Origin: Heterotrichella gracilis | Lineage: Eukaryota; Sar; Xanthophyceae; Tribonematales; Xanthonemataceae | Reading direction: 5' to 3' | NCBI GenBank assembly: GCA_032358255.1 | Contig: JAULBX010016304.1 | Span: 27,237 to 91,236, forward strand | Length of the DNA: 64,000 bases | Shown: in pieces, positions 1,492 to 57,961 of the stretch | How the letters are laid out: each line of letters opens with the position of its first letter | How positions within the stretch are numbered: position 1 is the stretch's first letter | Made by a program: the position numbers and the translations under genes | The notes under the pieces: model-generated | What the model was told of the DNA's origin: nothing | The model's input: only the letters and a program-made list of their open reading frames with translations | Databases searched by the model: none

Positions 1492-1678
1492 ATCACCCCT
1501 CCCCATCACCCCCGACCTCCATCCCCACCCGCTCCCCCAGCCATTGGGGGCCCAATCACCCCTCCCCATCCCCCCTGACCTCCATCCCCACCCGCTCCGC
1601 CAGCCATTTTGGGTCCCATCACCCCTCCCCCTCCCCCCCGACCGCCACTCCCACCCGCTCCGCCAGCGCGCGCTCCGG
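1492..1678 (-). repeat. Three 62-64 bp tandem copies of the last coding segment of the RecG gene
   Basis: Units run 1492-1552, 1553-1616 and 1617-1678. The third is the genuine end of the last exon and carries the stop at 1619-1621. The other two lie in the 3' UTR and still resemble coding sequence for the same C-terminal residues (LAERVG...), each with its own in-frame-looking stop. The copies are direct and about 80-90 percent alike by eye. They belong to the exon-edge duplications seen throughout the window. Confidence 0.8.
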
Positions 1679-4600
1679 CAGTCCCTTGAGGTCCAGCAAC
1701 GACATGGCGCCCTCCGCAACAGCGGCCTTGAGGGCAGCGGGCCAGTCATCGTACGCCAGGCTGACACCTGGCACAAGGGGGAGAAAAATAAAATATTGGT
1801 AATAAGGTATCTTATTACTACCTAGTTAGTTTGACCAGCTCTGCTACAATTCCAACTTCGCGCCCCAAAAAACTCCGTTCACTTTTACAATTCAAAAGCA
1901 CACAAAAAAAGGAAAAAGCATTTTCATGGACTTTTATTATTTAATAATATAGAAACAAATTTTGTTTTGCCTTGCCATACCTGTGACCAGCTCCGCTGCC
2001 GCTGTGCGTGCCGCTGCCAGCAGGTCCTTGTCCTTGGGCAGCTTGCAGGCGTGCAGCAGCGCAAGGCCGTCGCGGCCAGACTGCTGGGTGCCCAGCACGT
2101 CGCCAGGGCCCCTGCAGGGGGAGGGAAGGGAGGAAGGTCAGAGTAATAATAATAATAATAGTAGTAAATAAATGTACCCGTTGCGCCCCAGACATAGACT
2201 ACACGCTGGGACAGGGCCGGCATCCCTGCTGTGAAGGTGTGTGGAGGAGGGTATGTGGGGGGATGGGGAGGTGATGCCAAGGGAATTCTAAGGGGTTTTC
2301 TGGTTTTATCGCTGGATGGCTCCTTGTTTATGCGATTTGGGGAAGCACGCATGAGGTCACGTTGTTTCAGGACAACAGCAAAATTGCTCAGTATGCCGAC
2401 ATCGTCCCTGGTGAAAATACACAGCCAACCCTAATGGTGACACAGCCAGCCCTTCATTCACTCATATACCTCTTTATACCCCAGGGTTTGACCACCACCC
2501 CTTCTCTCCTGCCAGTACACCAGGCCTGCCCCTGCGAGCCAAACCCTAAGGGTTTCAAGGCCACCCATTCCTTGCTCATAGACCCCCTTTTAGGGTCAAG
2601 GTTCCATGCCACCCCCTACCTGTAAGCCAGGTCTGCCTCTGCGATGTCAAACCCGTTCTGGCTGCGCTCCATGACCTGCACACACACAACACAACGTAAA
2701 TCAGGCACTGAGGATAAGTAATTGGGGATCGTCCACTGGGGATAAGCACAGATCCCACGAGCAGTACAAAGATTGCCCGAATCCGTCAGGTCAGTTGCAC
2801 ACAGACACAAGAAGACCCCCCATGCTGGCACTCCTTCCACGTCCACACACAGGCCCAGGTCAAACCTCCACATCCTACTATCCCATCCTCACCCTCAGCC
2901 GCTTCATCCCCCTCTGGCTGTAGCCAGGAAACGAGTGGCTGGCTCACATGGCCCCCGCAGCTGAGTCAGCTGGGCCAGGCCAAACAGGAGATGGGGACAA
3001 ACCCTAGGTCTCAACCCTAGCCCTTTGCCCTCAACCCCTACAGGACCAGACCCTACACCCTCACCCCAAACCCTACAACCCCATGCCTAAACCCTAGCCC
3101 CATGTCCGCCCCTCCTCACCCCCAGCCGCTTCATCCCCCGCTGGTCTGTTGCCACCAGGTAGCAGTAGCTGGCCCTGCTGCCCCGCCCCACCCTCCCCCG
3201 CAGCTGGTGCAGCTGGGCCAGGCCAAACCTCTCCGCCCCCTCCACCACCATCACGGTGGCCTGGGGCACGTCCACGCCCACCTGCGGGGGATAAGGGTTT
3301 AGGATTTAGGGTTTAGGGTTTGGTTTTGCTGCTGGCAGTAGGATTGGGGTGCTGTGCAGGGCCATGTGGCAAGTAGGCTCGCTGACTCAGCACCAGAGTG
3401 CTCGTGTGCAGCTTATGGCTGGCACTTGGCACATGTGCAGCAATAGCCAGGGGGGATATATCACTTTCCTTCAACCAGGAGGATGCACTAGCTAACTTGA
3501 CCAACCCGCCTAACCCCAGGCCGCACCCCTGCGCAATAGCAATCTCCATGCATATTTCCACCACCAGACGCCCACCCGCACAAACATGCCCACCCGCACC
3601 AACGATCCCATCCACCCCCTACCCCCTCCCACGCACCTCCACCACCGTGGTTGAAATGAGCACCGGCGTCCTCCCCTCTGCAAACTCCCGTAGCGCAGCC
3701 CCCTTCTCCTCCGCTGTCATCCTCCCGTGCAGCAGCCCCACCTCCACACCCTCAAGCACACCATCCCTGACCAGGCGCTCGTGCTCAGCCTCAGCGGCAC
3801 GCAGGTCCTCAAACCCTGCAAGGGCATTGGTAGGGAATAGGGTTTTCGTAAGGGTTTTCATTTTAGCGCCGCAGAGTACTGCAAGGACGGTGGGGAGGGA
3901 CGTTGCCGGGGGTCAATTCCATGTCACGGATTAAGTTTTCAATTAGGGTTTGACCTGGAAGGCGCGCAGGTCCTCCTAGCCTGCAAAGGGGGCAATCAGA
4001 GCCTAGCATTAACATATAGAGCTGGCGCCTACAATGATGGAAAGCCTACATAATGGGACGCAAGAAATGCACAGAATTCAAAGGCCATGGGGCCCATCAG
4101 CCTAGCTTCCACGAAGAGTTGAAGAGCCATCCCATGCAGATACCCCAGCACAACGCACCTCCCTTCACGCTTGTCTCGATGAGCGGGCACACTATGAACG
4201 CCCTGGCCCCCGCCTTGACCTCCTCCTTCACGGTATTGTACAACCCCTGGCGGCTGTGCTCGTTGCCATCCCACAGTACCTTGGTGGTAATGGGCTGCCT
4301 GCACGCAACACAGTACTTGTTTTGCTGACCATTTTAAATTCAGTTTTCTTGAAAATATCTTCTTCTTTGTTTTTGGTGGAATACAATGCTTTGCTGACTT
4401 TCAGCTTTCTTTTTTCGTTTTTCCTTGAACTTCTGAAGTTTTTCTTCTACTTTTTGGTGGGACACAATGACATGGCACAAGCTGGAGCCGTCCTGAAAGA
4501 CATTCTTGGCATTTGGGAAATCTTGAGTAAACAAATATGCCACCTGCATTCAAATGCGCATGCAACCATGCCAGCACGGGGTTTGGTGCATACCTGCCAG

Positions 4601-7600
4601 GTGGCATGTACAACATCGATGCTGTACAACATCTCGCTGGCACTGATATTAATTTGATGTCAATTCATGATTTATTCACCTGTTAGGCTGCTGGACAACT
4701 CGGTGGCACTGATTTACAGATCGCCTATTACTTACATGCGTCCAGCGAAACAGGCGGATCAGCAAATAAACTACTTAGTATATGGATATATTCACCTGTG
4801 GCATCTCATCGATGCTGGACAGCTCCATGTCCCCCCGCACCTCCAGGCACCCATTTGCAAATCACGTTAGTTATATGGTACTCATCAAAAGGAATAATTT
4901 ACCTGCCAGGTGGCATCTCATCGATGCTTGAAAGCGCCATGTCCCCATGCGCCACCAGGCAGAGGGTGCGGGGGATGGGGGTGGCGCTCATGGCCAGCAC
5001 GTGGGGCGAGGGCACGTGGCGGGTCTGAAGCTTGGCGCGCTGCTCCACACCGAACCTGGGAGCAGTGGGGGAAAGGTGGGCGGTCAGCTAGGACTTGATA
5101 TAGGGTATTAAGGTGTGGGGCTGGAGCTCGACGAACTGCTCAACACACGGGTGGTGGGGTACAATAGCCCATGTGCCTGGCGCTGGGTGTACAAGGCTGA
5201 TTGCTCACCTTGCTAAATGGCGGGAATGCCTCCGCACTGGCACCCACAACTCTGATCATAACCTTCAACCCTAAACCAGACCAGGACCATAGGCTGTGCA
5301 TTCTCCCACTCAATGCGATGTTACAAGTAGATTCATCAAAGATTTAGAAATTATTACTATTCCAAAATAGGCATGTGCCACCCACTTGTGCTGCTCGTCG
5401 ATGACCGCCACCCCCAGCCGCTTGAATTCCACCCCGTCGGTGATGAGCGCATGCGTGCCCACCACAATGTCGATCGCACCGCTCTTCAGATCATTGTAGA
5501 TCAGCCGCTTGTTTTTGGCGGTAGTGGAGCCGGTCAGAAGCTCCACGCGCGGGCGCATGCGGTAGGGCAGGGCTTGCGTGAGCGTGGTTAGGGTTTTCAG
5601 GTGCTGCTCGGCCAGGACCTCGGTGGGGGCCATGATGGCTGCCTGGGATTTGGACCCCACCGCTGCCAGGCAGGAGAGTATGGCCACTGCTGTCTTGCCG
5701 CACCCCACGTCACCCTGAAGGGGAGGCAGGTCACATGCAGGGTCATGTTTAGGGTTCAGGGTTCAAATTTTGGGTTGAGAGTTCAGGAGAGGATGGCCAC
5801 AGTCCTGCCACAACCCACATGACCCTGGGGATGACCGCAAGGAGGGAGATAATCGGGTACTGTACGCTCCCGGCTGGAGCACATACATTTAAATGTATGC
5901 ATTTATGTATGCTGCATACTTATGTGCACACGTGTCTGCTTCAGCGACATGAACCTCCAATGTGGTGGCCACATGCGAACCCTGCACAAGTGGCCCCCCT
6001 CACATACGTCCCCACACCCACCAGCCCCCACCCACCCACCCACGCACCTGCAGCAGCCTCAGCATGGGCGCTGGTCCCTAAATATCCCCCACCCACCTCT
6101 ACCCACCCCATCCAATCTCCCACCACCCACCTGCAGCAGCCTCAGCATGGGCGCTGGCCCCGTCATGTCCCCCAGCACATCCTGCAGCGCGCGCCTCTGC
6201 CCCCCTGTGAGCTGAAAGGGGAGAGAACTGCGAGCCGCCTCCAACACGGTGTAGTCACACACGCAGATGCCTGCGAGGTTTGGGGTAAGGGTTTAAGGGT
6301 TAGGGTTTATGGTTAAGGGTTTAAGGGTTGGGTTTAGGGGAGCAGTCATACACGCAGATGCTGCAGGAGAGATGGGAGGGGCATTCACATGCACATGGCT
6401 GAGAGGTCATGCCATGGCACCCCAACCCATCCACCTTTGTGGGCGTACAGCACAGTAGTTCACAAAGTAGCCCACTGATCAGCAATGTCCAGTGGAACTC
6501 ATTTTTGCAGTGCCAACGATTCCAAGAAAGCACACTGACACCATCACCGCCCCCGCCCCCGACCCATATCCCGTCCGCTACTCCGTCCGCCGCGACAGCA
6601 TTGAAACACCACCCAACCCCCGCCTAAAGCCCACCTTCCTTGGTACGCCCCCCGCCTAACCACTAAGCACCACTTCCCAGACAACACACACACCACCACC
6701 GCCCCCACCCCTGCCACCGTTGCCACCGCCACCACCATCACCGCTCGCCGCCGCACGCCCCACTGTCTCAGGATAGTTTTGCGCCAGCCAACCCCCACAC
6801 CCACCTTCCTGGGGCACCTGCTGTGGTGCGCGCTGCGCCGCCCTCCTGACGAGCATCGCGCACTGAAGCACTAGAAGCTCTTGGAAGGATAGGCGCCTGC
6901 GGGCGGCCTCCGCTTCACCCAGGGTGGCGGGCTGGTGGATGGACTGCGGGGGGAAAATGGGGTTATAGCAAGTAGGTGGAATACTCCCTCACCATCCTGC
7001 GAATAGTTCATAAAAAAATAACTCAATTTGATTTCTTAAAATGTTAAAGTCCCATGCGCCCCTTGGGAAGCGAGGCCACGAGGTAACCAAGGACAGGGTC
7101 CTGGCAGGAGGACTTTAATATATCACTGGTATATTTGAGTCCTCTTGGTCCTGGAGAGTATTGGGCCCAATGTGGTCTAGCGCAGGCGGCAAGGCATCAA
7201 TGCAAAACCCGCCTCTTGGGATACTATCTATTAGACCAGACCACTCCTCTACCAATGTTGTAAACGCGTGCAACCAAATACCTATACCTACCCTGAGCGC
7301 CTGTGCGTAGCTCATCACCCCAGCCTCTCCCTGAGATAGGCCGGCACAGGGTCCTCAAGGGTATTGGGCCTACTTGTTGGGCCTATCTGCCTACTTTTTG
7401 CTGCAGGATCTTGATGCGGGACCCGTTGCCGGTGATAGAGTTGACTGCAATCCTGGCTGTTCTGCTGAACCCCACCGGAACCACCTAAAACGCACCGCAC
7501 TACCTATCTAGTTGCTACTCTTACCCTGAGCGCCTGCGCGTAGCTCATCACCCCCATGCGCTCCCTAAGATAGGCAGGCACAGGGTCCTGGAGCGTGTTG

Positions 7601-10600
7601 GGCCCGATGTTTTCCAGTGCCAGCGGCATGATCTTGGATCGGAACCTGTCGCTGGTTATCTTGCCTTTCTGCCGGTACACGGGCTTCACCACCCCCCTGG
7701 ACTGCCCGCAGTCGATGTCCTTCAGGACCACCATGTTGCCCAGCTCCCACTTGCCTGCACGGATAGGGTTTAGGGTTTAGGGTTTGAAACAGGGTTTAGG
7801 GTTTAGTACTGGATCCATGTCCATGAGCACCACCATGTTGCCCAGCTCCCTATTGCCTGCAGAAAAGGGGTTTGGGGTTCAGATAAACCCTAGGACAGGG
7901 TCTCAGGGTTTAGGGTTCAACACAGGCTTTAGGGTAAGACGCAGGGTCCATGTCCTTGAGCACCGCCATGTTGCCCAGATCCAACTTGCCTGCAGAAAAG
8001 GGGTTAGGGTTTGACCAGGGAACACAGACCCCTATGATTCATTACTTATGAGAATGGAAGAAACTGGACACAGGGCCAAAAATAGCAACCCAACATCTGT
8101 GGAAGACCGTGTGAACATAATGCTGATGGTGATGGTATTACCATTGAATGGTCGTGCCAGCTGGATTGAGCGCATGCAGTGGGCCTTGCTTAGGGTTTAG
8201 GGTTTCCTGCCATAACCCTCTGTACCTTTGGGTGATAGTTTTGCATCCCCTTCAACCAGCACTATGCTTCCTACGGGGTTGGCCGCCACCTCCTTATCCT
8301 GCCCCCACACCCCCCTCCCGCTCTTCACATTCGTGCACCGGACTGACAAGGAGGCCTGCATTTGGTCCCCAGGTGCCGCCTCCCCTTCATCCTCTTCCTC
8401 CCCCTCCCCAGCCCAGGGATTGATCCAAATCCCAGACGGCATTTCCGGGGTATCGGTGTCATCCCCCTCGGATTCCGATTCCGAGGGGCTGGGGGGTACG
8501 ATTGCGTTGTCCAGCCGCAATATCAATTCCAAAGACCCCATGTTCCTGAACTTCTTGGCCTGCACGGGGTGGAGATCTGAGTAGGAAACCGCCCCACACC
8601 TGGGCTTTACAGGGTTGATGCGGCATGTTGACCAAATGCCCTGGCGTGAACGCACACACTGCCACAGCGAGATTGCTCAGCCGATGTAACATGTACCCCA
8701 TGTCCCTTGATGTAACCCTAAACACGCAGCTGTTATATCTGCACTGTGATACAGCATCTCTATGTCCCTCGTGTGTGTGCTGCATCCCTACGAACCCGTC
8801 AGTGCCAAGAATGATACAGCTGCAAGGCCACAATTTCAAACAGTCATGTCACCCGATGCCATCCCCAGGTACCTGTATCCTCTCCACCACCCCCTTGACC
8901 ACCACCCTCTCGCCCGGCACCAGCACATTCATCTGGTAGTGCGTGTAGGACTTGGGGAAGTGCTGCAGCACATCCTTCAGGGTGATCATGCCAAGCTTGC
9001 GCAGCTGCCTGCACACGGAGGGAAACCCTTTAGTAGGGTAATACAATATTATGGCTGCAGCACATCCTTCAGGGTGATCATGCCAAGCTTGCGCAGCTGC
9101 CTGCACCACCAGGGAAACCCTTCAGTAGGGTATGCAGCATCGTGCACAGGCAGCCCCAGTGTGTCACATGTGGGTGAATACTAGCTGGGGTGTTGTTATA
9201 CAAACCAGGATTTTCTGGTTTATATATCAACACCCCTGATTCTAGTTTGCCATACCAATCTTTCCCAGGTGCCTGCCCCATGGCATGAAACCGCATGTGG
9301 GGTTGTGCAAGGGTTGCTGTCCTCCCCTGCTTTGATAATTGCCTCTGCTTCTTAAGCCCCACTTCCACCTTAGTATCAGCCCGCTTAAATCCCAGACAGC
9401 GTGGTGGATGCCACCTTCCAGTTTAGGGTTTAGGGTCATGACAGCAACTACCTCCCCACTCACCCTTCCAACAGCCACCACAGGACACATGTATGCACCA
9501 TGCATGCGAGGGTTTTTCAAGGGTGTTTCGAGGGGTATTGTCTTACTTTGGCAGCATCTTCTGCTTCTTGAGCCACACCTCCACCTCAGCATCCAGGCCA
9601 TTAGGGTCCCAAACAGCGTACTGGGTGGCCACTTTCCAGTCTGTCATGGTGGCACCCACCTCCCCACCCTCCACTGCAGCCTCAATGGCTACCAGAGGGT
9701 CGGTTATGAGGCTGTCGAGAGAGAGGTCTTCACCCAGAATGCCATCTTCCTGCCCTAGAATCTCGTCCAGATCAAGGTCCTGCAAAGGCACAAGAAAATG
9801 AAAAAAGCCCTTGCCTAGCGAAACAACCTAGCTTTGACACCCACATTGGGATCGAGAAGGCAGGCAGGCTCTCTACAGAGGAAAATGCCTCAGGATTCAG
9901 GAGCTCTGCCTTTGCAACATTTCATATTGACGTTGGCACAGTTGCATGGACATCCACACAGGTCATGAAGTAACGGAGTGCGCAGCCTATCCTTGCAAAG
10001 GTATATCAAGGTGATATTGGCAACAAGGGAGGAAAAGTATGGGGCATTTCCCTCCGTTCCACTGCAAATTCCACCCCTATCGCACTGTCCCTACCTGGAA
10101 TGCCACCGTGGCACTGGCTTGCAGCTGCCGCGGGGCAAACGCCTCCTCCACCTCGACCTCCCTTTTCCCCGCCGCTTTCTTCTGCGCCTTGCCGCCCCCC
10201 TCTGCCCGCACCGGTGGCTCCCTCTCCTCTTTCTCCTTCACTTTCTTCCCCTTACCAGGTGCTTGCATGCCGTCCCACACAGCCTCCACCGTCCCCATGA
10301 ACCCCCACTTCTGGTTTGAGTCTAGCAGGCATGCGAGATCCAGCTGCAAGCCCTGAGCCAGCTGGAAAAGCACCTGGCCGGTCAGGATTGCATCGTCCAG
10401 CGCCCGATGCTCCTTGGCTGGCTGTGGCAGCTTGAAGTACTCTTTCAGCGCCTGCAGCGACTTGCTGTCCTTCACCCTGCGGTGGCAAAGCGCGTATAGG
10501 GTTTAGGGTGTAGGATTTAGGGTTTATAAGCTGTGCAGAATGGTTCATGGGCCGTGATGCTGTAGAGATCAGCTTGTGCAACAGCGGCAGAGGAGTGCAT

Positions 10601-13600
10601 GCGCCACGCCACGCCACTTCCTTGAAACCCTTGTGCCAGGGCTGATGAGGCAGCACTAGGGTTCACGTTATGCCTGCGTTGACTACAGGTAATGCAGAAC
10701 TACTTCATTGGTAGAAGAACCTACACTTTTGTCAACTCAGTAGATGCATCACTGGCCCGCTATATGTAAATCCCTAAACACCACCGACACATACAACCCA
10801 AGCCCTCCACCCCCCACACCCCGCACGCACTCGAGTTCGCTGTGGTGCTTCTTTGCGAGGACGAAGGTATCCAGGTAGGTCCAGTTGAGGGGCAGGCGCG
10901 GCATGGAGGGTATCTTGGCAGAAACCATATGGCACGCATGTAGCACCATGGGGAAGTCAAAACCCTTCCCATTGTGCGCAACGATGATGGGGGTGAAGCT
11001 GCCCTCCGGTGAATTGCACTGCCTGTCCACAAAGGCCACAAGCTGCCGTATGGCACCCCTGCGCAATGTGCATTGTTTTAGGTGATTACATGCATTCCAG
11101 CAATACAGCCAGATTAGCAGTCAGTCTTGCACATGCGGCGCCACGCTTTGTTTTAGTTGCGATCGTCCATTGGCTGCGTTGCAGTGAACAGCAGTGCATT
11201 GGTTGTGGTCTCGTGCTTCAGGGCACACAATCATTATGGAAGTATATGCCTCGATGTGGAGCCATTGCAAGGGGAAAAGGTGACCTTGGGTTGCGTGCGC
11301 TGCCTGCCAAAAAAAGGTTGGAGTTGCCGCATGGCGGCACAGCGCAGTCGCGTTTGTCATCCAAAGCGATGCAATGTAGTATATTTGGGTAATGGAATGG
11401 AACACAAACACGTCCATAACACATCAGACCACATTGCAATTCCCCCCTTTGATGCATTTTCCACTAAAGCGTACATCAAAACATGGTCATATTCGCAGTC
11501 GGTACCCACCCGAGCCACGGCAGGCGCACGTCGTGCACCATCTCACTGGTAATCCCATGCACGTCCGTGGCCTGGGGCGGGACGGCCACCGCGTCAGCAA
11601 TCCTAATGAGGGTGCTCCAGGACTTGCCGGTGTCCATGCAGTGCGCGGCCATCTCGAGGATGTAGCACCCACGATGCACGCCTGCACAGCATGGTTTAGG
11701 GTTAAGGGTTAGGGTCAAGCGGCACAGGTTCAAATCCACGATGCACGCCTGCACAGCATGGTTTTAGGGTTCAGGGTTTAGGGTTTAGGGTCAAAGCACC
11801 ACATGTCCAAATCCACGATGCACGCCTGGACAGCAGCAGCACAGGTCAGAATAACAGAACAGAATAATGACAAAAGCCCGCAGTGCAAGAAGCGCCATAG
11901 ACAACTCCCGGGCGGGGCGATTCCCCGATCCCGGGGAGGCATGCAAAGAGCAAATTTGCGCTCTGAAGGCAGAGAAAATTCACATGTAAAAACAGGTAAT
12001 AGCTGTTAAAAAGGCAGGAAAGCAGCACAGGTCCAAAGGGCGGACAGCCGAAAATGTGACGGGGAATTAATTGCACAGTTTAGGGATAAGGTAATTGCAG
12101 GAATTTGTAAGCTACACGCCACTGTAAACGACATGGGGGGCGTGCACATGGGAAATTCAGGTGCAGGGGGCAAACAGCACCCATGGATGCAGCATGGTCA
12201 TGCACATCCCACATGTGCATCATAACTACACGACATGCAAAACATTGCTCCAGACGCTGCGAAAGTAAAGGACAAATGAACACTGGACTTTTCATTAGAT
12301 TTCGAATTAGAGTATAATGTACCCGCCGCGCCCCAGAGGGACATAGACTACACACTGGGACAGGGGCTGGGACTTTTCATCCAGTATGGTTTTGCCCCTG
12401 CACCGCAACCGCACTCCGCACCTGAGGTTTCTGTGTCAAACGTGATGTAGCGAGGCGGACCGCTGTACACCTTTTCATACTGCGGAGCCGCATCCCCCCA
12501 CTGCGAAAATGCCACATGCCCTGGGGACTCAACTGGCCCCCGAGCCTGCACGGTGGAAAAGTGATTAGAGACACGCACCCCAAAAATGCAGCCAATCTGC
12601 AGTCAGTCTTGCCCATGCAGCGCCAAGCAGTTTGATCTTTGCATTGCAGTGTGCTCAACAATCAGCATTACAGGTGCGGCATTACGCATTCCATCCCGGC
12701 AGCACAACCTCCTTGACACTCAGCATCCCACATGCGGGCCAATGCCCTTGACACCAGCACTATTCATGGCATGCGTATCACATTCATCTCAATAAATGAC
12801 AGCACTTATCACTTTATAAACAGGACGGACTCCAACCATCACGGGTTTAAAAATGTTCTTATCATTAAACAACATTCTTAAGATCAACAAACATACCACT
12901 TGTTGTTCTGGCGCCAGCACAGCACCCTCCTCGGCGTGCCCTGCGCTTGCAAGCACCGCGCCATTGTTGCTGGTCCGCCCTCGGGGCACGCTGGATGCTG
13001 GCGCGGCATCCTGCGCGGCGTCTGAGGCGGCAGGCGGGGCCTTGGCAGCCGCTTTTTGGCGGGTGCGGGTAGGTGTGGGGGTGGCGGTGGGTGTGGTGGT
13101 GGGGGCGGCAGTGGATGTGGATGGTGCTGCTGCCATGCCATTCCCGTTGATTGGCTCCGCTTCAACAGCCCCATTTGTTGGCGAGGACTTTGCTGGCCTG
13201 CCCCTTTTTGGCTTGCTGTTGGTTAGGCCCTCGCTACTCGTGTCCTGTGTGTCGCCGCTGGCGACGGCAGGCGGGGTCTTGGCGGCTGCATTCCGGATGG
13301 GGGTGGTTGCTGCCGCTGCTGCTGCCATGCTGGTGCTGGTGCTGTTGTCTGGCTGTGTGGAAATCCTCTCCTGTGTGCCATTGGAGGCGGCGGGCGGGGT
13401 GTTGACAGCTGCTTTCCGGATGGGGGTGGTTGCTGCTGGTGGTGCTAATGCTGCCATGCTGGTGCTGCTGCTGGGGACTGGCTGTGCAAACCTCCTGCTC
13501 TCCATTTTGTGGATGGCGGTTTTGGTGTCCATCACAAACATCTTCCGCTCGGCGGCGGGCATGCGGCTGTAACGGTGCACCTCCCGCAGAAGGGGTCTGA

Positions 13601-21239: not shown

Positions 21240-21285
21240 TTTGGGGTTGCTGTAGGGGGTTTTCACCGCCGTATGCACACTGGAA

Positions 21286-23274: not shown

Positions 23275-23369
23275 TTGCTGAGGTTATGCACTGCATTCTG
23301 GCGCAGACCGCTGGCAAGTGACACCTGACCCCTTTCTCGTGAAACTCAAAAGCATGCGCTGCTTAGGAA

Positions 23370-42762: not shown

Positions 42763-43014
42763 CTACCCGTAAAAGCCCTGCAGATCATCCGCCACCGCAT
42801 TGCCCCCCGGCATGACCCTCTGCGCCAGAGCGACCTTGCAGCGCTGCACGTCCTGCGGGCTGAACTGGAGCATGGTGGCCAGCACTGGCAGCAGCTGGGT
42901 GGACTCGCCTGTCTCGTAGAACTTGAGCATGACATTCTTCAGGTAGTTGAGGTCCACCGCAGAGTTGCCGATGGCCTGGCGCTTGTGCTCCCGCTCAACC
43001 TCGCGCAGGGTTTC
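42763..43014 (-). other. GRIP domain
   Basis: The last exon encodes NYLKNVMLKFYETGE and LLPVLATMLQFSPQDVQR, which match the GRIP consensus (YLKN-V-L-F then P-V-L-LL-FSP). The invariant Tyr of the domain, which contacts Arl1-type GTPases, is present. The protein ends 35 residues after the FSP element. Confidence 0.92.
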
Positions 43015-46000
43015 CTGCAAGGGTTTTGGGGAGGGCGGGCTAGGGTTTGTGCTGGCGATCCTCCTGGTGGAAGGACTTTGCAGGTTTTTGGAGGGGATGC
43101 ACAAAGCTCTGGGGTACACGGGTTATGAGGGCAGACCATGAATTTGACCGGATGCTTCCATCTAGAACCAACTATCCTATGATGCGCACATTTACCATTC
43201 CATTCCCAGCCCCTGCTCCACATCATCAATCACGTAGAGCACCCCCTACTCCCATGCCCACCAATACCTCCATACCCCTTCTTACCCACCTTGAGCAGCT
43301 TCTCCTGCTGCTGCCTCAGCTCCACCTCCCGCTCCAGCTCTGCCAGCTCAGCCTCAAGCACAGCCACACGCGCAGAAGCAGCGGCGGCAACTTCAGCGGC
43401 GGCGGGGCCTGGCGGCTGGTGGGGTGATGACAGCATGGACAGCAGGCGGTTGTCGTGGAAGGAGGCTGCGGGGGGTGGTAGTGGCATGAAAATAGGGGGA
43501 GGAACGTGTGCAAGCGCATGTGTGTGGGGGGAGGGGAAAGCGGGATGCACATGGTCAGCTATGCACCAGATACCCACCCTACACCCTACTGCAACGACCC
43601 GCCAGCACCATACGCTACCCACCTGCATCGTTGAGCATATCATCCAGTCCAAAGTTGCCCGACATGGTGGACATAGACCTGCGGGGTGTGGGCGAGCTGG
43701 AAGAGGCCAGTGCACCGCTGCCGTACTCGCCTGCAAGCAAAATGCACAAACCGGCTGTGAGCACGATACAATAGGGCAAACGATTCCTGCTTGCGCCCAT
43801 GGTGGTGACATGTGGTCCCCCCGCACATGGCAGTGTATTGTGGTCTCCCACGCATGCACAATGCAAACCTTCCATCCCCTGTTGTGCAAACAAACCCCAC
43901 ATGCCACTTCACTCCCCCATCCACAAGACTGCCACAGCGCATCAAGAACCTAGGTGCAGTGATCCCATCGGCATCCCCATCAACACCACCTCATTCATGC
44001 CATTCCATAATCCACCTCAAACTCTCCCCCACTCATTTACCAAACTGCACCTCCACCCCACCCTCTCCCACCACCCCACACCCCACCTGACTGCCGCGCT
44101 ATGGTCCCCGGCCCATGCCCCCTGGGCGGCGTCGCATCCCCGCCCCCCACGGGGATCATGGCGGGGGTTGAAGCTTCCGACAGCGCCTCCCTGAGCCCCG
44201 CCATCTCCTGTCGCAGGTGTGCGTTTGACTCGAGTAGCTTGCCCACCTCCTCGTCCTTGGCCTCAGCCACCCGCAGGGAGGTGTCACGGAAGGAGGTGTA
44301 CTCGGAGCGCAGAGTGGACAGCTCCTGGGACAGGGCCTGAGGACAGGGGATGGGGGTGAGTGGGGTGATGTTTGGGGACTGTGATGTGCGAGGCTTGGGG
44401 GTTGGAATATGTGAGATTGGGAAACTGTGAGGTGTGGTCGGACCAGAGGGGAGCAGCTTGCAGGGCAGGGCATGGGGATTCCACTGCATTGACAGAAGCG
44501 GCCACTGCCATCACACAACAAACAACACCGCAGCAATCGCCAAACACATTAAAGTGCACCCCTTAACCCTAACGCCATAAATACTTAATAGGAATGACCA
44601 GCCCATACACAGCCCTATTCCGCCCCCCACCGTTGCCTTTGCCGCCTCCTCCGCCAGCGCCTCCATTTGGTGCTGCGCCTCAAGCAACCGCCGCTCTGCG
44701 CCCTCAAACTGCTGCTTCCACTCAGCACACGCCCTGCGGGGAAAGGTTCAGGGTTGATCTGCCAGGCGCATAGCCAAGAACAGGTACCTTATGAGTCGCC
44801 ACGGCGATGCGCCTGGTCATCATCCAAGCCAACACCTTCTCAAAACCCTTCCAAAACCTACCCATGCAAGCACACCGCTGCCTGTATACCGACTCCGCCG
44901 CCAACTTCCGCTCCTCCATCACCTCCCCATCCACTGCCCACCTGTGTGCCAACCGCCCACCCATATCACCCTCCACCACCCACCTGTACGCTGACTCCAC
45001 CGCTGCGCTGCGCTCGTCCATGACCTCGCGCACGTCCCTCAGCTGCGCCTCGTACCTCGCAACCACCAGGTCGGACTCCTCGCGGTGCCGCTGCTGGGCA
45101 AGGGACAGGGCCTCCTGCAGGGGGAGGAATAGGGAGGTTTCAAGACTATTTGGCTAAGTTATTTTAGAATTGGCAGGGTACAGTGCTCGGGGGCAGGGGT
45201 TGCCGCCTGGGCGCCCATCAGGCCCCCAGGAATGGGGCGCTGAATTAAAAACATTCATAGTTTCACAACAAACACTTCACTACAACAAACAATATCTTCA
45301 CAATTGTAATTCATGTGAATATGTGGTTAATTACGTGATATATGCAACATTACTAATGTTACATTAAACGATGAAATTCAATCAACACATATAAATGGCA
45401 TACCCACACCCCGAGCCCCGAGCCCCCTCAAAATTCCCCCACACTGCACCCTGGGAAATGGGCAGACAAGGATCGAATGAAATGACAGCGCGCCACGAAC
45501 CCATGTCAGCACTTGTGACGTAAGCTGGTCCTACAAGGCAACCAATGAGCTGTGCCCCCGCACCCACCCACCCCCTTCATCCTCTTCCCTTCCTGGTTCG
45601 AACCTGTCACCCCTGGTATGTGCATATGTGCCCCCGCACCCACCTGCGCCAGTCGCTTGGCCTCCTCCGCGGCCGCCGCCCTGGAGATTGCCTCCGCCGC
45701 CTGCGCCAGCGCCTCCCCGCTCTGCTCCTGGCCCACGCTCTGCGCACGGTGCAGCTCCTGGTCCTTAGCGCGCAGCAGCGCATGCGCACGGACCTGCACA
45801 CAGAGAGTGAGTGGGTGTCCTGTTGTGGGATTGGGATGCAATTGCAAGGCTCACTGCCAATCTGGCTGCATTGCCGATGTACATGGGTGCATGCTACTCA
45901 CTAACAGCGATATAGGCTACACAATTTAATTATGAAAAGTATCCAATATTTTCTCAAGACATAAGAATAAAAAAATACCCAGTAACTTAAAAGACATGAG

Positions 46001-49000
46001 ACAAAAATTCATAAGAGTTCCCCTTCACCCTACAGCGGCTCACCTTGTACTCCTTGAGCTCCCCCTCCAGATGGGTGATGGTGGTCTGGGATGCAGCCTG
46101 GGCATCCGCCGCCATGCGTGCCTGCGAGGAGACATAGGGTTGCGTTAGAGTTACATCAGGGTCAGTATCCATGGACATGCAACATCGCATTAAATGCCAC
46201 AACCAACATGCAGACGAGCAAGTGTAGGCAGTGGTTCATTTCCCTGCACCAGCATGGCCCCTCCCCCCCCCCCACACACACACAATACACACACACACAC
46301 AGAGACATCCACCCCACCCATCTCCCCCTGCACTGATCCACCTCAACCTCCACCCCACCCCCTCAGCTCCCTTCTCCCCTCCAAATCCCACCCCCCACAC
46401 ACACACCTCCCCCTGCACCACTCCACCTCCCCCCTCCTCCCCCCACCCGTCCCTACACCCCACCCACCCACCTCCGCCTGCAGCCGCTCCACCTCCTCCC
46501 GCACCCCCCGCAGCTCCTCCACCATGCTGGCGCTCGCCTCCTTCTTCTCCTGCGCCAGGCTGTCCATCTTCTTCTTCATGTCAGCCATGGCGCGCTTCAC
46601 CCTGCCTCGGGTGCCCTCCGACTCCTTCTTCACCTGCGCCACCTCGGCGCGCGCGGCCTCAAGCTCGGCTCGCAGGGCGGTGAGCTCCGAGTCGAGCGCG
46701 GCGACCTTCTCTTCCGCTGCGCGGCGCGCCTGGTGGGCCTGGCTGGCGCTGGCATCAGACTCGCTCTCATGCTCCTGGGGAAGCGACGTTTATTTATTTA
46801 CTATTACTTACAAATTCCTTACTTTATTACATGAGATGAAGAATCCACTGCCATGAGATTATCCTTAACTCACATATACAATTTTATTTAATGCCCTTCT
46901 CCATGCCCCATAACCCTGCCCACCACACCCCCCACTTGCTTGCCACCTTCCTCGTCAAAACCCTCCCCACCTTGATGGCTGCCTCCAGCTCCTTGACCTC
47001 CCGCGCATGCGCCTCCTTTGCCTGCTCAAGCTCCCGCTCCAGCCGCGTCTGCACCTCCCGCTGCCGCGTCTCAGCGCCAAGCAGCGACTGCTCCTTTTGG
47101 GCCAGCAGCTCGTTCAGGTCCGAAAGAAGCTGCAGCAGCGGTGGGGGAGGCATTTTAGTGGGCACATAGAAAGTTAGGGTCCAAATTACCAATCCGTTGC
47201 CATGGCTTTGCAATAATTATAGCTCCCTTTTTTTAATTGTTTTCTTGGTGTCGGAGAACATGGTATTTTGGGGAAGCTGATTCTCATCTTCCGCAACGTG
47301 ATGCGCGATAGCATGCAAGTTTTGAACAGGCAAGGAGACAACCCAGCCACCAAAAGGAACTTGGTGGCATGGCTTCAATTCTCAATTTTGTCTTTGTCGA
47401 ATATCTCATTAATATCGATTAATGGTTAAATCAAAGGCATTGCCCACCCCGCACCTCCTCCTTTGTCTCCAGCTGGGCTGACCAGTAGGCTTCCTTCTGC
47501 TTCACAGCCGCATGGGCAGCCTCCAGCTGGGCAGCGCTTGCCTGCAGCTGCTCCTTCAGCCCTGACACATCCTGCTGCAGCTGGGACACCTGGCGTGGCA
47601 GGGGAAAGGGGGGGTTTAGCGCAGCACATTGTTGTCAAATTATTTCTCCCCAAAATGTGATGTCACAGCAGGCAAGGCACCAAAATGTGCTTGGCAAGGG
47701 CTTGGCACATATTGTGTGAGTAAAGGGGTCCATGGTCCATGATGCAGCCATGCACGCAAACGTGACTAGCCTTTCCAGCCAGGTCCGTGCGTTCCTGACC
47801 ACGTAATGCAATGTATGCAATATGTATCCTTGAAGAATACCACACAGGGTGATACGCCATCCAGTGCATATACCAGGTATGCAGCGCCGTTTTGCACTTA
47901 AGTGTCTCAACACAAATTCTTAGAGATTTATATTACAGTGCAACCCCACCTTGCCCCCCTGCTCCGCCTCCTTCTTCTGCAGCTGTGCCCCCCTCTTCTT
48001 GGCGTCCGTCAGCTGCGCCGCCAGCTGCGCCACCTGCTCCTGAAGAGCAGCGGTAGCACTGGAACCATGAGCCGCGCTGCTGTTGGCCGCCTCCCGCGCG
48101 CTCTGCAACTGCTGCTCCATGGCCTGCATCTGGCTATCGCTCGCCTGCTGCAGATCCACCAGCTGCTGCTTGAGAGCGGCCACGTCCTCGTGGAGGCTGG
48201 AGATGACCCCGCGGGCTTCTGTCAGCTGTTCTGCGCTGGTGTTGGCTGCCTCGGTGGCCGTTTGTAGCTGCTGCTCCAGGAGTTGTAGCTGGCTGTCCCG
48301 CTCCTCCTGGACCTCGTTCAGCTGCTGGGTGAGCCGCTCCACCTGGCCCTGGAGGTTGGAGATGGCGGTCTGGGCGCCTGATTGTCCCTCTGCGCTGGCG
48401 GTCGCTGCTTCCCTGGCAGACTGCAGCTCCTGCTCCATGGCATGGATCTGGCTATCGCTGCCCTGCTGGAGGTCAACTTGCTGCTGTTTGAGGCTGCTGA
48501 TGTCTTCCTGTAGGCCTGCAATGACCGCTTGCGCACCAGTGTACTGCTGTGCACTGGCGCTGGCCTCCTCCTTGGCTGCCTGCAGTTGCTGTTCCAGCGA
48601 CTGCACCACAGCCTCGAGCACACCGCCTGCCGCAGCGCGTTGCTGCACCTCTGCGAGCTGAGAGGACAAGCTCTGGACCTTGGCGAAGGCTTGGGCAAGT
48701 TCCTGATGCGCCTGCTCCAGCTGCTGCTGCTGGCTCGCTGCCTGCTCCTGCAGGGATGCAACCTGCGCTGTGGCGTCAGCCAGGCCAGACCCCGCCTCTT
48801 CTGCTTTCTGGTTGGACTCCTGCAGCTGTGCAGCCAGCTGGTCATGCTGCGCGTGCTGTGCCGAGAGCTGCTGGGTCAATGCCTCGATCTCCGCCTGTTT
48901 GGCAGTCAGGAGCTGCGCGTGGTGCTCGCTGGCGCCTGCAGTGTCCTTCTCCACCTGGTCCTGGAGGGCTTGCAGCTTGGAGGCGCTGGCCGCTGTGGCC

Positions 49001-52000
49001 GACTGGCTCTCTACAACCTGGGACTCTAATTGCGCAATGGCCTGCAGATGGCAGTGTGATTGGAGATGACTGTATGCACTAGAACAGGAGGGCTTTTGCT
49101 GATGCAAATCGGCCTTTGACCTCTTGACCTAAAATTGTGAGAGCTATTGGTTCATTGCGCATGCATTTATGCATCACAAGTATGTCCAGAACATTCCCAT
49201 GTGAGGACACGTATTTCCCAATAGTGGCTTGAGGCTGCGGAGGGGGCTGGCATGTGCAGGCACATTGCATGTAGTGCAGTGCATGATCTGGACATGATGA
49301 GTGTCTACCTGTTGTGTGCTCTTAAGTGTCAACTTCCACTCGGCCTCCTGTGCCTGTGCTGACGTGGCTGCTGCTGCCAGCTCCGAATGTGCAGCTGTCA
49401 GCTGTTGTTGGAGAGAGGCTACAGTTTCGGAGGATGATTCAGCCTCCTGCTGCGCTGCCACAACCTTGGCCTCCAGAGAAGCCACCTGGCATAAATGCCC
49501 AGGACCAGGAATCAGAAATGTAACGCGAAATATCAGTTTGCCCATGTGAGGGTTAGGGATTAGGTCACCTGACCTGATTTGAAATGATAGCTCCCCCAGA
49601 AAAAAAAGTCATTACTGTATATTTCGATTTTCAGATAATTTCAACTGTTTACTAGGAATACGAACACAGATAGCCGTTCTTATTTTCTCCACAGCTATTT
49701 GTGAAGCTGTACCACTGCGATACATGCCTCCGGCGGCCTGTTCCTGATGCGGTGCCTGTTGAAGATCAACGAGCAACCCCCGCACCTGCTCGTGTGCCTG
49801 GGACAGCTCGGCTTGAAGCTGTGCAGTGGCAGCATCAGGGGATGTGCCATTCTCCATCCCTGGCGTATCACGGGGATGCGCCTGCAGCTGCCCTCGCAGT
49901 TCCTGGACCAAGGCATTGCTCTTTGCCAGCTGCTGCTTCAAGCCTGCCAAAATCTGCAAGGCACAACGCATTTGCTCGTGACCAGGCGTCAGAAAGCAGC
50001 TCAGAGGTTGATGTTCAGAGACGTATCAACGTACTGACCTCGTCACTCTTAGCTTGCTGGGCTTCCAGTTTGCCTTCCTGCTCTGATGTTCTTGCTGCTG
50101 CGATCGCCAGCTCCTGCTTTACTACACCGAGCTGCTTTTCTAACTCCTCCACCTGGATGCAGCAGGACAACTTTGTGACTAATCACCAGCATGGACGTTT
50201 GACACTGAAGGCTGATATGTCAATGCATATCCGTGCAGTGCAGAGAGCGTTTAAAACGATAATAATGGATTCCACATTCACAGGCTGGATGGTGAGCTTA
50301 CCTGTGTTAATTGCTCCTCCTCATTTGCCCTGGCCTGCGTCAGATCCAGCGTCAGCTTGCTGACCTGCTCATTCAGGACCATGAGAGCAGTCTGGTTCAC
50401 TGACCCTTGCTCCGCGCTGCTGCTGGCTGCCGCATTGGCCGCCTGCAGTTGCTGCTCCAGCTCCCGGACCTGCCTGCCATGCTCCTGTTGCGCCTCAGCC
50501 AGTTGCTGCGTCAACCCACCAACCTGCCCTTGCAGATCCGCAATGACAACCCGTGCCTGGGATTCCTGCTCAACGCTCCCGCTTGCTGCTTCCTCAGCCG
50601 CTTGTAGCTGCGTCTCCAGCACCTGCGCCCGATTCGACGCCACTTCAACCTCCTTCTGCAGCTGTGAACACTCCTCGGTCGCACCCTCCAGACGCTGCGT
50701 CAACGCGCTCACTTCCTCTTGCAGGGCGGAGGTGGCAGCCTGGGCGCCGGCTTGCTGCTCTGCGCCGCTGCTGGCCGCCTCGGTGGCATCCCGCAGCTGC
50801 TGCTGGAGGCTCTGCACCTGCCCTTGGAGCTCCTCAGCCACAAAGGCCTGCTCCTGCACCTCGGCGAGCTGAGAGGATAGCTTGTGTGCCTGCTCACGGG
50901 TGCGTTCAACCTCCTGGTTGGCCTGGTCCAGTTGCGCACGCTGGCTGGCCAGCTGCTCCTGCAGGGATGCGCATGCCGATTCCGAATGCGCGGCCCTGTC
51001 CTGATGCTGCTGCGCCTGGCTGGTCAGCTGCTCGATCAGCGCTGCCTGGTCAGCAAGCCGCTTGTTGAGGGCATCCACCTGGCACACGACCCCAGGGTGA
51101 GAAAGCCATGCAATAGGTTAGCATGGACTTGCCGCCCCCTATCACCCTGGCACCGGGGGCAGCAGGCCACAGTGACAAACCAGGATAGTCGAGTCCACCA
51201 TGGCATTGTGAACACTGCTTGGATGCGCCAACGCCAAAGACTCCGCAGTATGTACGCCATTAAACACTTTCCAGCAAGTTGGCGGCGCTGTTGTCAGGCA
51301 CACCCCGTACCTGGCTCTGTGAGTCAAGCGCCTTCACCTCCTGTGCATAGGCCTGTTGCAGCTCCTTGATCTGCTGCTGGAAGCGTTCCTCTGTCTCCCG
51401 CAACTGGGCTTCTGTCGACAGAATGAGCTGCTCCCTTTGAGCTAGCTGGGAGTTGAGGTCATTGAGCACCTGCAGGTGGGGTGAACACTGCTGTTGCTGA
51501 TATGCAATGCGCAGGACGCGCCATAGCCTACAGCCCCCCAAAGCCAGCCCCCATGTGTTACCGTATCTATGCGCTGGTAAATTACTTCAGTGACAGAAGT
51601 GGGCAGGCCCGGAGCAAGTTGGACTTCTCACTTGTCCTTGCCCACCCTAAGGTGCCAAGGGTTGCTGTTCCCTAAACTAGGCCGTTCGTACCCCCACCAC
51701 CCACCCAGGTCCATTTTCCACACTGACCTGTTCCTTGCTGTCAACCTGGGAGCTCCAGTACGTTTCTTTCTCGGTAACTACAGCCTTGGTACTGGACAGC
51801 TCCTCCCGCACTGCTCCAAGCTCCTTCTCAAGCCCAGTCACCTGTAGTACAGGAGCGTTCCACGGTCAACCTGATCCCACCACTATACGGTGATCATATT
51901 GCTGGGTGTATGCACACAGCGTCCAAGTTCCCACCTTGGTTTCGTGCTCCTTTTCTTTCTTCTTGAGGATCAGCAGCAGCTTCTTCTTTGTGTCTGTGAA

Positions 52001-52075
52001 GTCCTTTTTGAGCTTATCATACTGCTCTTGCAGCCCCAAGCCCTCTGCGGGCTGTGGGGATGCTGGCTCGCTCAT
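42763..52075 (-). CDS. GRIP-domain golgin, long coiled-coil protein (19 exons, about 1,545 aa)
   Basis: Exons: 52075-51935, 51841-51728, 51469-51311, 51078-50302, 50152-50039, 49953-about 49740, 49485-49309, 49041-47950, 47589-47455, 47129-46971, 46774-46472, 46121-46044, 45793-45644, 45114-44984, 44733-44631, 44336-44087, 43730-43623, 43465-43290, 43014-42763. The donor of the sixth exon is unresolved; other junctions match. The start is MSEPASPQPAEG. Nearly the whole protein is heptad-rich Gln/Glu/Ala/Leu coiled coil, ending in a GRIP domain. Golgins tether vesicles at the trans-Golgi. It is about twice the length of Arabidopsis GRIP, at least partly through internal duplication of exon blocks (second/third and ninth/tenth exons). 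The Gln-rich coils mean that database hits outside the GRIP domain would be unspecific. Confidence 0.88.
44881..45045 (-). repeat. Golgin exon-edge copy
   Basis: The donor-side end of exon 45114-44984 (VMDERSAAVESAYR) is repeated 103 bp away in the intron at about 44881-44940, as VMEERKLAAESVYR. The copy remains open and coding-like and is followed by its own GT. Confidence 0.8.
46263..46305. repeat. C-tract and (AC)n microsatellite in a golgin intron
   Basis: A run of C followed by ACACAC repeats, then further C-rich sequence up to about 46460. The plus-strand proline-rich frames over this stretch are artefacts of composition. Confidence 0.85.
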
Positions 52076-55130: not shown

Positions 55131-57961
55131 TCATGAGACAGATGCCCCCAGTCCCGATGACAGCTGCTGCAGGACCAGCTGGCAAGTAGCGCATGTGATG
55201 GTGACCCCAAGGATGTCCATGATCACCTGCAGTCCCGCACAAAGCAGCCAGCAGTGAGCATGTAAAACAGCCCAAACAATATGTATGCGTTGGCAGGGTC
55301 CACCCTCCTAGCCAGCCCAAAGGGGTCTGTGAAAATGAGAACATGCATCCTTGCTACAAGGCTTACAAATTGAAATCCCCCCAATCCACCCCCACCACCC
55401 ACATACTACTTCAAGTGCCAGACGCCATGAAGAAAACTCCTACCAGCCCTCACAGCCCCCTCACCTGTATGCTTGTCCCAGCATTGGCAGGGTCCACCCC
55501 CATCCTGGCCAGGCCAAAGGGCAGGGCAGTGCCAGCCAGCACGCTGGTCATCACGATGAGCAGCAGCGACGAGGAGATGGCAAGGGAGTTGGCCATGTTG
55601 CCGTTGGTCACGTACACGCGGATAAAGCCGCCCACTGCAAGGGGGGAGAGGGGGATTTGAAATGGAGGAACGGGGGGCTCAAATGGCTACACAACCCTGA
55701 TGAAAGGGAGGGAGAGGGCAGGCGGGCAGTTGCCAGGAGGTGGTACAGGAGGTGGTACAGCGAGGGTAGCCAATGCATGCAACAAATGGAGGGAAACATT
55801 TGGTGATGGTACCCTTTGCCATGAAATGGACTTCCTGCAACAGCGCGGGCATGGGCATTGATGAACCCCATGCACTGCTGATCACGTACAGCTGATCAAG
55901 GCACCGATGGAATCACTGCAATCTCATGGTAGTTGGAGTCAGCTTTCCCCTGGAATGACGTCATTTGCGCTGACCTGGCAATGCAGCTGGCGTATGCTCA
56001 CCTGATAGCCCCGCCCCCAGCAGCAGCGCCACCGTTGTCTGCTGCATCATGGTCTTGCGGAAGGAGGGCATGGTGGGCTTGATGCTGCCCGTGGCCTGCG
56101 GCAGGAGGGGCGAGGGAGTCCATCAATGTTTTATTTTACTCGCTACCATGCCACACATGAAAATAGCAGGAAAGGGTCTGCAATGGACCACAGATAAAAC
56201 AGACGTGATGTGGGATCAGTGTGGATGGGGAGGCATTCGCATCACGGTCAAACGGCATACTCTATTGACCGTATTCGCCAACTGCGTGCCCCCACCTCCC
56301 TCTCCCCCAAGACCGCCACCCACCCGGCTCCTAATGACTACTATTGCCCGCCTGCCCCAACCCCCCACTCCCAACCGCCACTCACCAGCCCCCTGATGAC
56401 CTTGATTGCCGACTGGTTGCCCGCGTTCCCCCCCGCCCCCACCAGCATGGTCAGAAACAGCGTGACCACCAGGTGGTCCTTCAGCAGCGCCTGGTACTGG
56501 TCGAGCACCATGCTGCTGGTGCTCTGGAGCACAAGCAGGCCAAGCAGCCAGCGCCTGGGGAGGGGGAATAAAGTCAGAATTTTCGGCGCAAATTTTCTAA
56601 CTATTGCCATGAATAGCATTCTTAAACGACATGATGAAGGATGATGTGGCGCAAGCGGATGTAAGAATTAATCTCCAGTAAAAACAGCAGGGAGATTATC
56701 CTGGAGTCCTTCCAATGGACATGGAGAATTACAAAGTAATGCAATAAATCATTAATGGACGGGTGCGCAGGACCCCGGGTACAAATACTGGCTTGTGGCG
56801 TGTGGCATTCAATGCGGAGGTGAATGGTGATGTGTGCGCCCTGTCGCAGCATGAAATGTCAGCACGTCATGCCCAAGGCAGCATAAATTCATGCCCTGGC
56901 AGCAGTGCACCCACCCCTTGCAGGCCTGCGCATTGCCCCCCGCACCCCCTCCTCCCCGCCACCTACCCCCTTGACCACGCCTCGTCCACCGCCCCCATCT
57001 CCGGTGCGTCTGTGTGCAGCACCTCACAGAGCTCAACGTCTGGGCTGCCTGCGTTGCACACGTCCTCGCCAACCTCGTACTCGTACTCGTAGTCGGGCGG
57101 GGAGGGGGTGTCGGGGGCAAAAGACTCGCCAAGCTCTGCAGGCAGGGGGTGGCAGTTGGTGGTGAATGTCCAGCAGTTGTAGACCGGAAAAGTGCCGTTG
57201 CTTTGAAAATAACAATGGGTTGACTGGTGCATCCGAGAAATGGAGGAGCAAAGGGGGGGAGTTGAGGCGTGGGCTGTGCGTTGTGGTTGTGACCAACCCT
57301 CAGGGACAGATGTGGGCTGGTGCAAGTACTCCCGTCAGTGGAGAAACGTGCAAGGGATGTGAAAGGGATTTCAGCCACTGTGTCTCTGAGGTGGTCTTGG
57401 CACTGGCAGGGTGGTCATTAGCCCTAGTCTCCCGGCCTGGCAGCACAAGTGCACTACAATGCATGCATATGGGGCAGGGTCTGGGTGGAACAAAGCCAAA
57501 TAAAGCACAGTGCAGGATAACAAGTTTGCCCTTCACAAAACCTGACGCTTGCAGGGGCCTTGGCTTTTGGCAGGTGACACATAAACACAGCACACAGGCA
57601 AGCTCCCAGCTGGGCACTAGGTACCATGTACTCTGCCAAGCGCTGCGGGTACAAGAACAGTGCTTTCTGCCCAGACACGCGTGCCCAAGATAACTTTACC
57701 CACAAAGACGGCCGTGTGCTGCTTGATACGTGCTCTACAGCACGCACCACTACCCACTTGGTCTTCAAACTCACCAGCTTGCTTGGCTCCCCTGGTGGGC
57801 GAAATCGCCAGCGTTGCGACGTGGTGCTTCCGGTGGTGGAAGCGTGTCCCTGCCGTGTTGAACCCCTGGTGAGGCAAGCTCCTGGGCCTTGCGAGGGTTG
57901 AATGGCACGTTGCTGTGGCGAAGGTGGGGTGGGCCACGCTGCACGGTCTGCTCAGATGCAT
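55131..57961 (-). CDS. mgtE: Plastid-type MgtE/SLC41 magnesium transporter, membrane domain only (6 exons, 294 aa)
   Basis: Exons: 57961-57775, 57135-56967, 56554-56386, 56095-56002, 55634-55465, 55226-55131; phases 1, 2, 0, 1 and 0 all match. Residues 1 to about 60 look like a chloroplast transit peptide (Ser/Thr/Arg/His-rich, no acids until the end). An acidic linker follows (DYEYEYEVGED), then the MgtE pore domain: RWLLGLLVLQ, MLVGAGGNAGNQSAIKVIRG, SVLAGTALPFGLARMGVDPA and a C-terminal MDILGV helix. GGNAGNQ and the Asp in GVDPA belong to the Mg2+ selectivity region. The bacterial N domain and CBS domains are missing, so the cytosolic Mg2+-sensing gate is absent. Likely role: Mg2+ movement across a plastid membrane. 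Confidence 0.87.
55288..55330 (-). repeat. Intronic copy of part of an MgtE exon
   Basis: About 43 bp of exon 55634-55465 (55481-55524, around LARMGVDPANAG) recurs 193 bp away in the adjacent intron, with scattered changes and no splice site of its own. Confidence 0.75.

Follow-up and report, generated by a model that had tools for sequence, protein, structure and literature searches.

The window analysed here is a 64,000-nucleotide stretch of the Heterotrichella gracilis assembly GCA_032358255.1 (contig JAULBX010016304.1, C164 below, positions 27237-91236), and its subject is a class of partial exon-edge copies, called echoes, which stand in direct orientation in the intron next to the edge that they repeat and are associated with telomere-like TTTAGGG tracts. 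Two genes are central to it. An exonuclease-RecG fusion gene (window 1107-14302) joins PF00929 to RecG helicase domains, a pairing also found in several named green algal proteins; a 63-bp C-rich tandem repeat (2.9 copies, window 1488-1676) lies at the 3' end of its model. The other gene encodes PI4K. Their best protein matches, at 63% to Myrmecia bisecta PI4K and 47% to the Coccomyxa elongata exonuclease-RecG protein, suggest by sequence a trebouxiophyte-like green alga. The window further holds an MgtE gene and a model at 40491-52075 that fuses a golgin-like coiled-coil protein with a C-terminal RNA ligase domain (PF09414) and probably covers two neighbouring genes.

The window was studied as part of a 314-kb sample that also comprised C2:1-200000 and C46:1-50000, and genome-wide counts refer to the 68.5-Mb assembly of 903 contigs. 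Gene models came from a self-trained hidden Markov model (HMM) gene finder, which predicted 528 exons and 472 introns (median 263 bp) with the splice consensus CAG/GTGNGT at donors and YYTGCAG/G at acceptors, the slash marking the border. The sampled compartments amount to 134.7 kb of introns, 95.0 kb of exons and 84.2 kb of intergenic DNA, with a GC content of 61-63% in exons and 49-52% in introns. The models of two window genes, PI4K and RecG, were checked against homologous proteins, and a few more against Pfam. Similar pairs were detected with blastn, telomere and short tandem repeats being masked for seeding.

The first-pass annotation had placed echoes in four genes of the window. Pairs that touch an intron number 18 in exonuclease-RecG and 15 in PI4K, and these two genes stand; golgin and MgtE have one each, the golgin pair being an 18-bp match, and the long repeats of golgin are exon-exon coiled-coil repeats. 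Within the window, the signal lies in two genes, not four. The count of at least twenty echoed exon edges given earlier is likewise too high, as 14 of the 206 splice borders in the window carry a detectable echo and twenty is reached by adding weaker cases. The features are as follows.

7712-7759, minus strand: RecG exon start with its acceptor (TGCAG/G), original; a TTTAGGG tract (CCCTAAA in the sense direction) lies between the copies
7814-7861, minus strand: echo of the 7712-7759 acceptor region in the intron, 88% identical, 102 bp away
7947-8015, minus strand: further copy of 7712-7759, partly exon in the HMM model
8962-9040, minus strand: RecG acceptor region, original, with 47 nt of exon
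9054-9132, minus strand: echo of 8962-9040, 94% identical, the 47 exon-derived nt identical, 13-bp spacer
6119-6174, minus strand: original RecG donor region; 6116-6280 is matched by RecG proteins of green algae
6035-6091, minus strand: echo of 6119-6174, with an in-frame stop (echo at 6048-6086)
5671-5717, minus strand: RecG acceptor edge, original; proteins match 5382-5720
5784-5827, minus strand: echo of 5671-5717, shorter by one codon; the spacer holds TTTAGGG
4910-4961, minus strand: RecG exon edge, original; proteins match 4902-5057
4798-4849, minus strand: echo of 4910-4961, a direct similar pair
11669-11835, minus strand: acceptor edge in three copies separated by TTTAGGG tracts
28039-28518, plus strand: PI4K head-to-tail array of 197 bp in 2.4 copies, spanning a donor
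28666-28699, plus strand: echo of the PI4K acceptor at 28745-28778, 91% identical
35158-35183, plus strand: echo of the PI4K acceptor at 35279-35304, 96% identical
35441-35557, plus strand: PI4K donor edge with its echo, 91% identical, a TTTAGGG-like spacer directly 3' of the donor
37558-37676, plus strand: echo of the acceptor region at 37763-37879 in PI4K, repeating the match to Myrmecia PI4K residues 1674-1715 and then diverging
37763-37879, plus strand: PI4K acceptor region, original, running on into the conserved exon
55287-55521, minus strand: the single MgtE pair, 41 bp, 85% identical

At several sites in PI4K and RecG, homologous proteins tell originals from echoes. Residues 1674-1715 of Myrmecia PI4K match the echo at 37575-37700 with 49.7 bits and a diverging end, and the exon at 37778-38053 with 98.2 bits and a match that continues; in RecG, homologous proteins likewise match the exon copies better and continue through them.

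Echoes belong to a wider class of local direct repeats. Blastn found 143 direct similar pairs less than 500 bp apart in the sample, as against a total of 29 in the ten 250-bp bins between 500 and 3000 bp, and inverted pairs came to five below 500 bp and to 14 over the range up to 3000 bp. The 143 include a tRNA pair and 13 exon-exon pairs, coiled-coil repeats in several cases, and the border classes exclude both. A predicted splice border is spanned by 80 of the 143, compared with 42.2 ± 5.1 (maximum 59) in 2000 random placements; a frequency at borders no higher than at random had been set in advance as the outcome that would speak against the phenomenon, and echoes are commoner there. Pairs that join a border to intronic sequence were observed 55 times (19.8 ± 4.0 at random placement), pairs with both members intronic 11 times in 135 kb (26.6 ± 4.5), and intergenic pairs 7 times in 84 kb. 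Pairs sharing one intron are non-independent, and the p-values given here are to that extent optimistic. Pairs are present on all three contigs, although sparse on C46 (7 of 143), and 58 of the 943 splice borders in the whole sample carry an echo. Their distribution among genes is uneven (chi-squared per degree of freedom 2.1 over 54 genes), in agreement with the earlier remark that the other genes show little or nothing of it. Edge-spanning direct duplication is a real phenomenon in all three sampled contigs.

Coding selection keeps the border copy recognisable for longer, and births, neutral decay and detection of duplications were therefore simulated on 286 of 348 introns usable as templates. 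The simulated advantage in detecting border over intron-only duplications is 1.27-1.29-fold, with an expected border to intron-only ratio of 0.94-0.96:1. The observed ratio is 55:11 (5.0), which leaves a corrected excess of 5.2-5.3-fold (p near 5e-9).

Under a slightly looser rule than the one that yields the 55 pairs, the sample holds 62 border pairs, 34 at donors and 28 at acceptors, 21-200 bp long and 69-96% identical, and the first-pass description of direct partial copies that span the splice site and lie in the adjoining intron is borne out by them. Copy and original are 56-246 bp apart in 60 of the 62, and each echo adjoins its own border. Only 2 of 62 echoes come within 6 bp of the far splice site; introns have therefore been lengthened, not created. 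Mean intron length is 383 bp with an echo and 269 bp in the others. The exon part of the duplicated stretch is longer than the intron part in 48 of the 62 pairs, and in 13 of the 15 at 86% identity or more.

Exon and echo differ at codon positions 1, 2 and 3 with frequencies of 0.123, 0.114 and 0.215 (61 events), and gaps of 1 bp are the commonest size in the exon part (30 of 44). This is the pattern of a constrained exon and a neutrally drifting echo. Alternative or mutually exclusive exons do not fit the predominance of 1-bp gaps, the equality of codon positions 1 and 2 and the in-frame stop in a RecG echo, and the codon-position signature together with the 69-96% identity of border pairs makes an assembly artefact unlikely. 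The decoy splice sites that had been proposed do exist in the sequence; no sign of their maintenance was detected, as 46 of 60 echoes retain the splice dinucleotide, compared with a retention of 67% among other dinucleotides (p = 0.13). Echoes also give rise to false mini-exons in the HMM models of ADK, DapDC, RecG and PI4K, seen as doubled peptides in the predicted proteins; ab initio gene prediction is fooled by them, which is a caution for gene predictors.

TTTAGGG is given as the telomere unit of Chlorella and Coccomyxa (PMC12636532; here and below, papers are cited for the passages drawn on), and the telomere label used here has that basis. With overlaps counted throughout, the genome contains the 14-base telomere pattern CCCTAAACCCTAAA 5629 times and its backward form 5 times; three exact TTTAGGG units stand at 834 places, and those of the backward control at none. 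The sample contains 105 tracts of 14 or more telomere bases, of which 96 are intronic, 6 exonic and 3 intergenic. Of the 96 in introns, 43 have a splice border no more than 20 bp away, a 3.06-fold enrichment over uniform placement (p = 3e-15), and the 8-base telo box reaches 1128 per Mb in introns and 107 per Mb in intergenic DNA. Direct repeats (score 24 or more) flank 40% of the intronic tracts as against 8% of control intron places, and inverted repeats 0%. Among introns of 250-600 bp, 14 or more telomere bases are found in 26 of 50 with an echo and 37 of 178 without (Fisher p = 3e-5), which upholds the earlier association of tracts with echoes; 83% of echo-free introns lack such a tract. 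Within echo introns, telomere density is 67 per kb in spacers, 77 in copies and 34 elsewhere.

The tracts are also oriented. In the sample, G-type and C-type tracts stand at 28:19 on the donor side and 12:37 on the acceptor side (p = 8e-4). Genome-wide, with overlaps counted, 14-mers within 25 nt before TGCAGG comprise 310 C-type and 144 G-type sites where motif density predicts about 151, and those within 25 nt after CAGGTRNG 289 G-type and 186 C-type sites where about 65 are expected, so that three of the four arrangements are enriched. A telomerase-direction test on the copies themselves was suggestive by eye only, is confounded with splicing and is not used as proof. A small dispersed repeat at window 13800-13910 consists of a (TTTAGGG)n core with a 28-bp sequence copied on its flanks; 6 other contigs hold 10 more matches to it.

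Copies and tracts come together in arrays. Eight loci were chosen as positives, with two similar motif matches close together, and do not give a rate. All eight are tandem arrays, read as 2-4 copies of which some have diverged; the period is 57-129 bp, the best self-match 79-98%, and in all eight the unit combines a splice motif and, to the intron side of it, a telomere tract. The HMM places an exon edge at the array motif in six (the exceptions are L035 and L040), the exon assignment resting on motif and HMM. Read by eye, five of the eight have the tract no farther than about 10 nt from the joint. At L034, copies 1-3 of four end in TTTAGGG and the last copy, which leads into the remaining intron, has no tract; at L041, four 82-bp copies, 98% identical, each repeat tract, acceptor and 41 nt of exon. 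Many echoes are also found in a gene model at C2:164284-170673 (L025 and L026) that has two tandem LysR-type regulator units.

The explanation that we favour, and to which we would give an even chance, is that echoes are fossils of local tandem duplications left by the repair of DNA breaks near exon-intron borders. A resected break, or a pair of nicks, would produce overhangs across the exon edge, complementary to each other and tens to about 200 nt long; once both had been filled in and the ends joined, the stretch would be present twice, in direct orientation. In some of the events, telomerase would first add a few telomere repeats to the broken 3' end, and a tract would come to lie between the copies. 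Copies inside exons would mostly be removed by selection, and those that cross an edge would persist, since the duplicate comes to lie in the intron and splicing can go on at the original site. The units would then be re-amplified into short arrays and decay neutrally, with introns growing from their edges. Fill-in and telomerase at free 3' ends would explain the direct orientation, the size range, the telomere sequence between copies and the edge-wise growth of introns, the breaks, the fill-in and the telomerase step being parts of the model that we infer.

Of the causes put forward in the first-pass annotation, break repair with telomere addition fits the direct orientation, the tracts between or beside copies and the arrays that include a tract. 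Template switching, its other element, is not favoured as the main route, inverted copies being expected from it as well and found at background level (5 under 500 bp). Reverse-transcribed splicing intermediates are unsupported, in that the units hold intron sequence and telomere tracts and appear to adjoin their own source.

Several observations weigh against break repair at borders. Among pairs of 88% identity or more, the border excess is just 3.0-3.7-fold (9:4, p = 0.02-0.05), and the false mini-exons that echoes create in the gene models hide some pairs. The flanking-repeat excess at the three intergenic tracts is not significant (p = 0.07), nor is the concentration of tracts in spacers within echo introns (14 for, 9 against, 14 ties, p = 0.40). 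At the level of genes, echoes correlate with telomere density (rho 0.62) exactly as they do with intron length (0.62), so that the telomere correlation proves little there. Before acceptor motifs, G-type tracts show no enrichment (144 observed, about 151 expected), an outcome that the exclusion of AG would also produce; the orientation bias as a whole can be explained by splicing constraint (no AG before an acceptor) as by telomerase, and symmetric breaks do not predict it. The model gives no reason why borders are hit.

The spacers are a further difficulty. Copies abut or overlap (less than 20 bp between them) in 15 of the 62 border pairs; in the 47 others the spacer resembles the far flank in only 10 (rank 0.05 or less, Kolmogorov-Smirnov p = 0.014), and filler or partial loss of the unit is therefore needed. 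By that resemblance, some of these events are plain tandem duplications with a diverged intron part, and at least one of the 47, C2:4678, is a three-copy array. True filler seems to lie between the copies in other non-abutting events, for example C2:181168, where copies 96% identical over 74 bp are separated by an unshared 36-bp telomere-like spacer. The spacers of three young events have no second match in the genome, in a search that ignores very common words; one of them, at window 35184-35278, partly resembles the far flank and may be a diverged part of the unit instead of filler.

It might be supposed that ordinary tandem duplication proceeds at a uniform rate and that survivorship and detection make the border pattern. 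Neutral decay is indeed seen, a detection bias exists and the excess among young pairs is small (9:4); the simulated bias of 1.27-1.29-fold is, however, too small to turn 0.94-0.96:1 into 55:11, few pairs are intron-only (11 in 135 kb) or intergenic (7 in 84 kb), and telomere tracts, although they have no protection from coding selection, are likewise concentrated at borders and nearly absent between genes. We regard this account as distinctly unlikely. Somewhat closer to the data, although still unlikely, is birth of the duplications mainly in exons as such, because these are GC-rich, nucleosome-covered or engaged in R-loops of spliced RNA, with survival of those that cross an edge and no special targeting of borders. 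The longer exon part (48 of 62, and 13 of 15 at high identity) and the GC content of exons agree with it, but faster divergence also shrinks intron parts, the peak of telomere tracts in the 20 bp of intron next to a border fits only indirectly, and exon-exon pairs are few (13 of 143, several coiled-coil), their expected number being uncertain. As for the choice of borders in the repair model, either breakage is linked to splicing or duplications are born throughout exons and lost where they touch no edge; the excess of the exon part (48 of 62) leans to the second.

Telomere-like motifs may be kept near splice sites for their part in splicing, as C-type pyrimidine or branch-like tracts before acceptors and as G-runs after donors, and duplications would merely carry them. 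The orientation bias fits this in the sample (28:19 and 12:37) and genome-wide (289:186 and 310:144), but direct repeats flanking the tracts are left unexplained, as are exact multi-unit arrays (834 three-unit places, none backward), C-type tracts are enriched after donors too, and 83% of echo-free introns do without a tract; we find the idea very unlikely. Hardly credible is the delivery of telomere repeats into introns by mobile elements or introners. The dispersed repeat at 13800-13910 is of the kind expected, yet the spacers of three other young events lack a match elsewhere in the genome (very common words ignored), and duplicated stretches of 21-200 bp are unlike the 3-9 bp target-site duplications of some introner families (PMC9860276).

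The ingredients of the repair model are known, and the odd part is the border focus joined with the telomere link. Interstitial telomeric sequences of rodents and primates have their origin in break repair. Chromosome-internal telomere units are also what the alga shares with telo boxes; these have been proposed to arise where telomerase acts on free 3' ends of transcribed DNA (PMC3022908). Telo boxes are slightly depleted in introns relative to the genome in Arabidopsis (150.7 against 155.2 per Mb) and rice (72 against 81.1; PMC3022908), in contrast to the intronic enrichment seen here. In mammalian cells, small tandem duplications arise when the telomere-associated CST-Pol alpha-primase fills in breaks that have 3' overhangs and the ends are then joined (PMC8355091). 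Short direct duplications and a fill-in complex that acts at telomeres are common ground; the parts of that paper drawn on describe neither an exon-border focus, as found in this alga, nor telomere filler, as some of its events seem to have.

Primates show repair-mediated duplication by capture of nearby DNA, closely linked and up to 619 bp, some copies including intron splice sites (PMC2671141). The copies of the alga, which are direct, differ in their concentration at exon borders and their link with telomere tracts. Intron gain by tandem duplication, as in a potato duplication across an intron-exon boundary (PMC4974935), has in common with echoes the tandem copy of a segment bearing a splice site, but the echo adjoins its original within an existing intron. 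Introners have brought large-scale intron change to eukaryotes, green algae among their hosts (PMC9860276); in contrast, no shared family was found for the three spacers tested here, although one dispersed telomere-bearing repeat exists. The usual intron gain by tandem duplication and alternative exons do not fit, and no pointer to introners was found. Among the titles and abstract openings listed from the open-licence literature, there was no account of exon-edge duplications with telomere tracts.

Outside these subjects, the window carries two tRNA-Pro(TGG) genes at 62627-62698 and 62974-63045, 347 bp apart and 97% identical.

A bolder version of break repair at exon edges, which we hold only tentatively, would make borders a dedicated break-and-heal zone: splicing or spliced RNA would open the DNA, telomerase and the fill-in complex of telomeres would heal it, and the resulting units of exon edge, splice site and telomere tract would be the main route of intron growth. 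Be that as it may, a single genome offers thousands of telomere-tagged sites (the 5629 14-base sites, overlaps counted, with 96 of the 105 tracts mapped in the sample being intronic). Such a system lets one ask by what process introns gain length, whether exon edges are broken by splicing or by RNA-DNA hybrids, and with what frequency telomerase acts away from chromosome ends.

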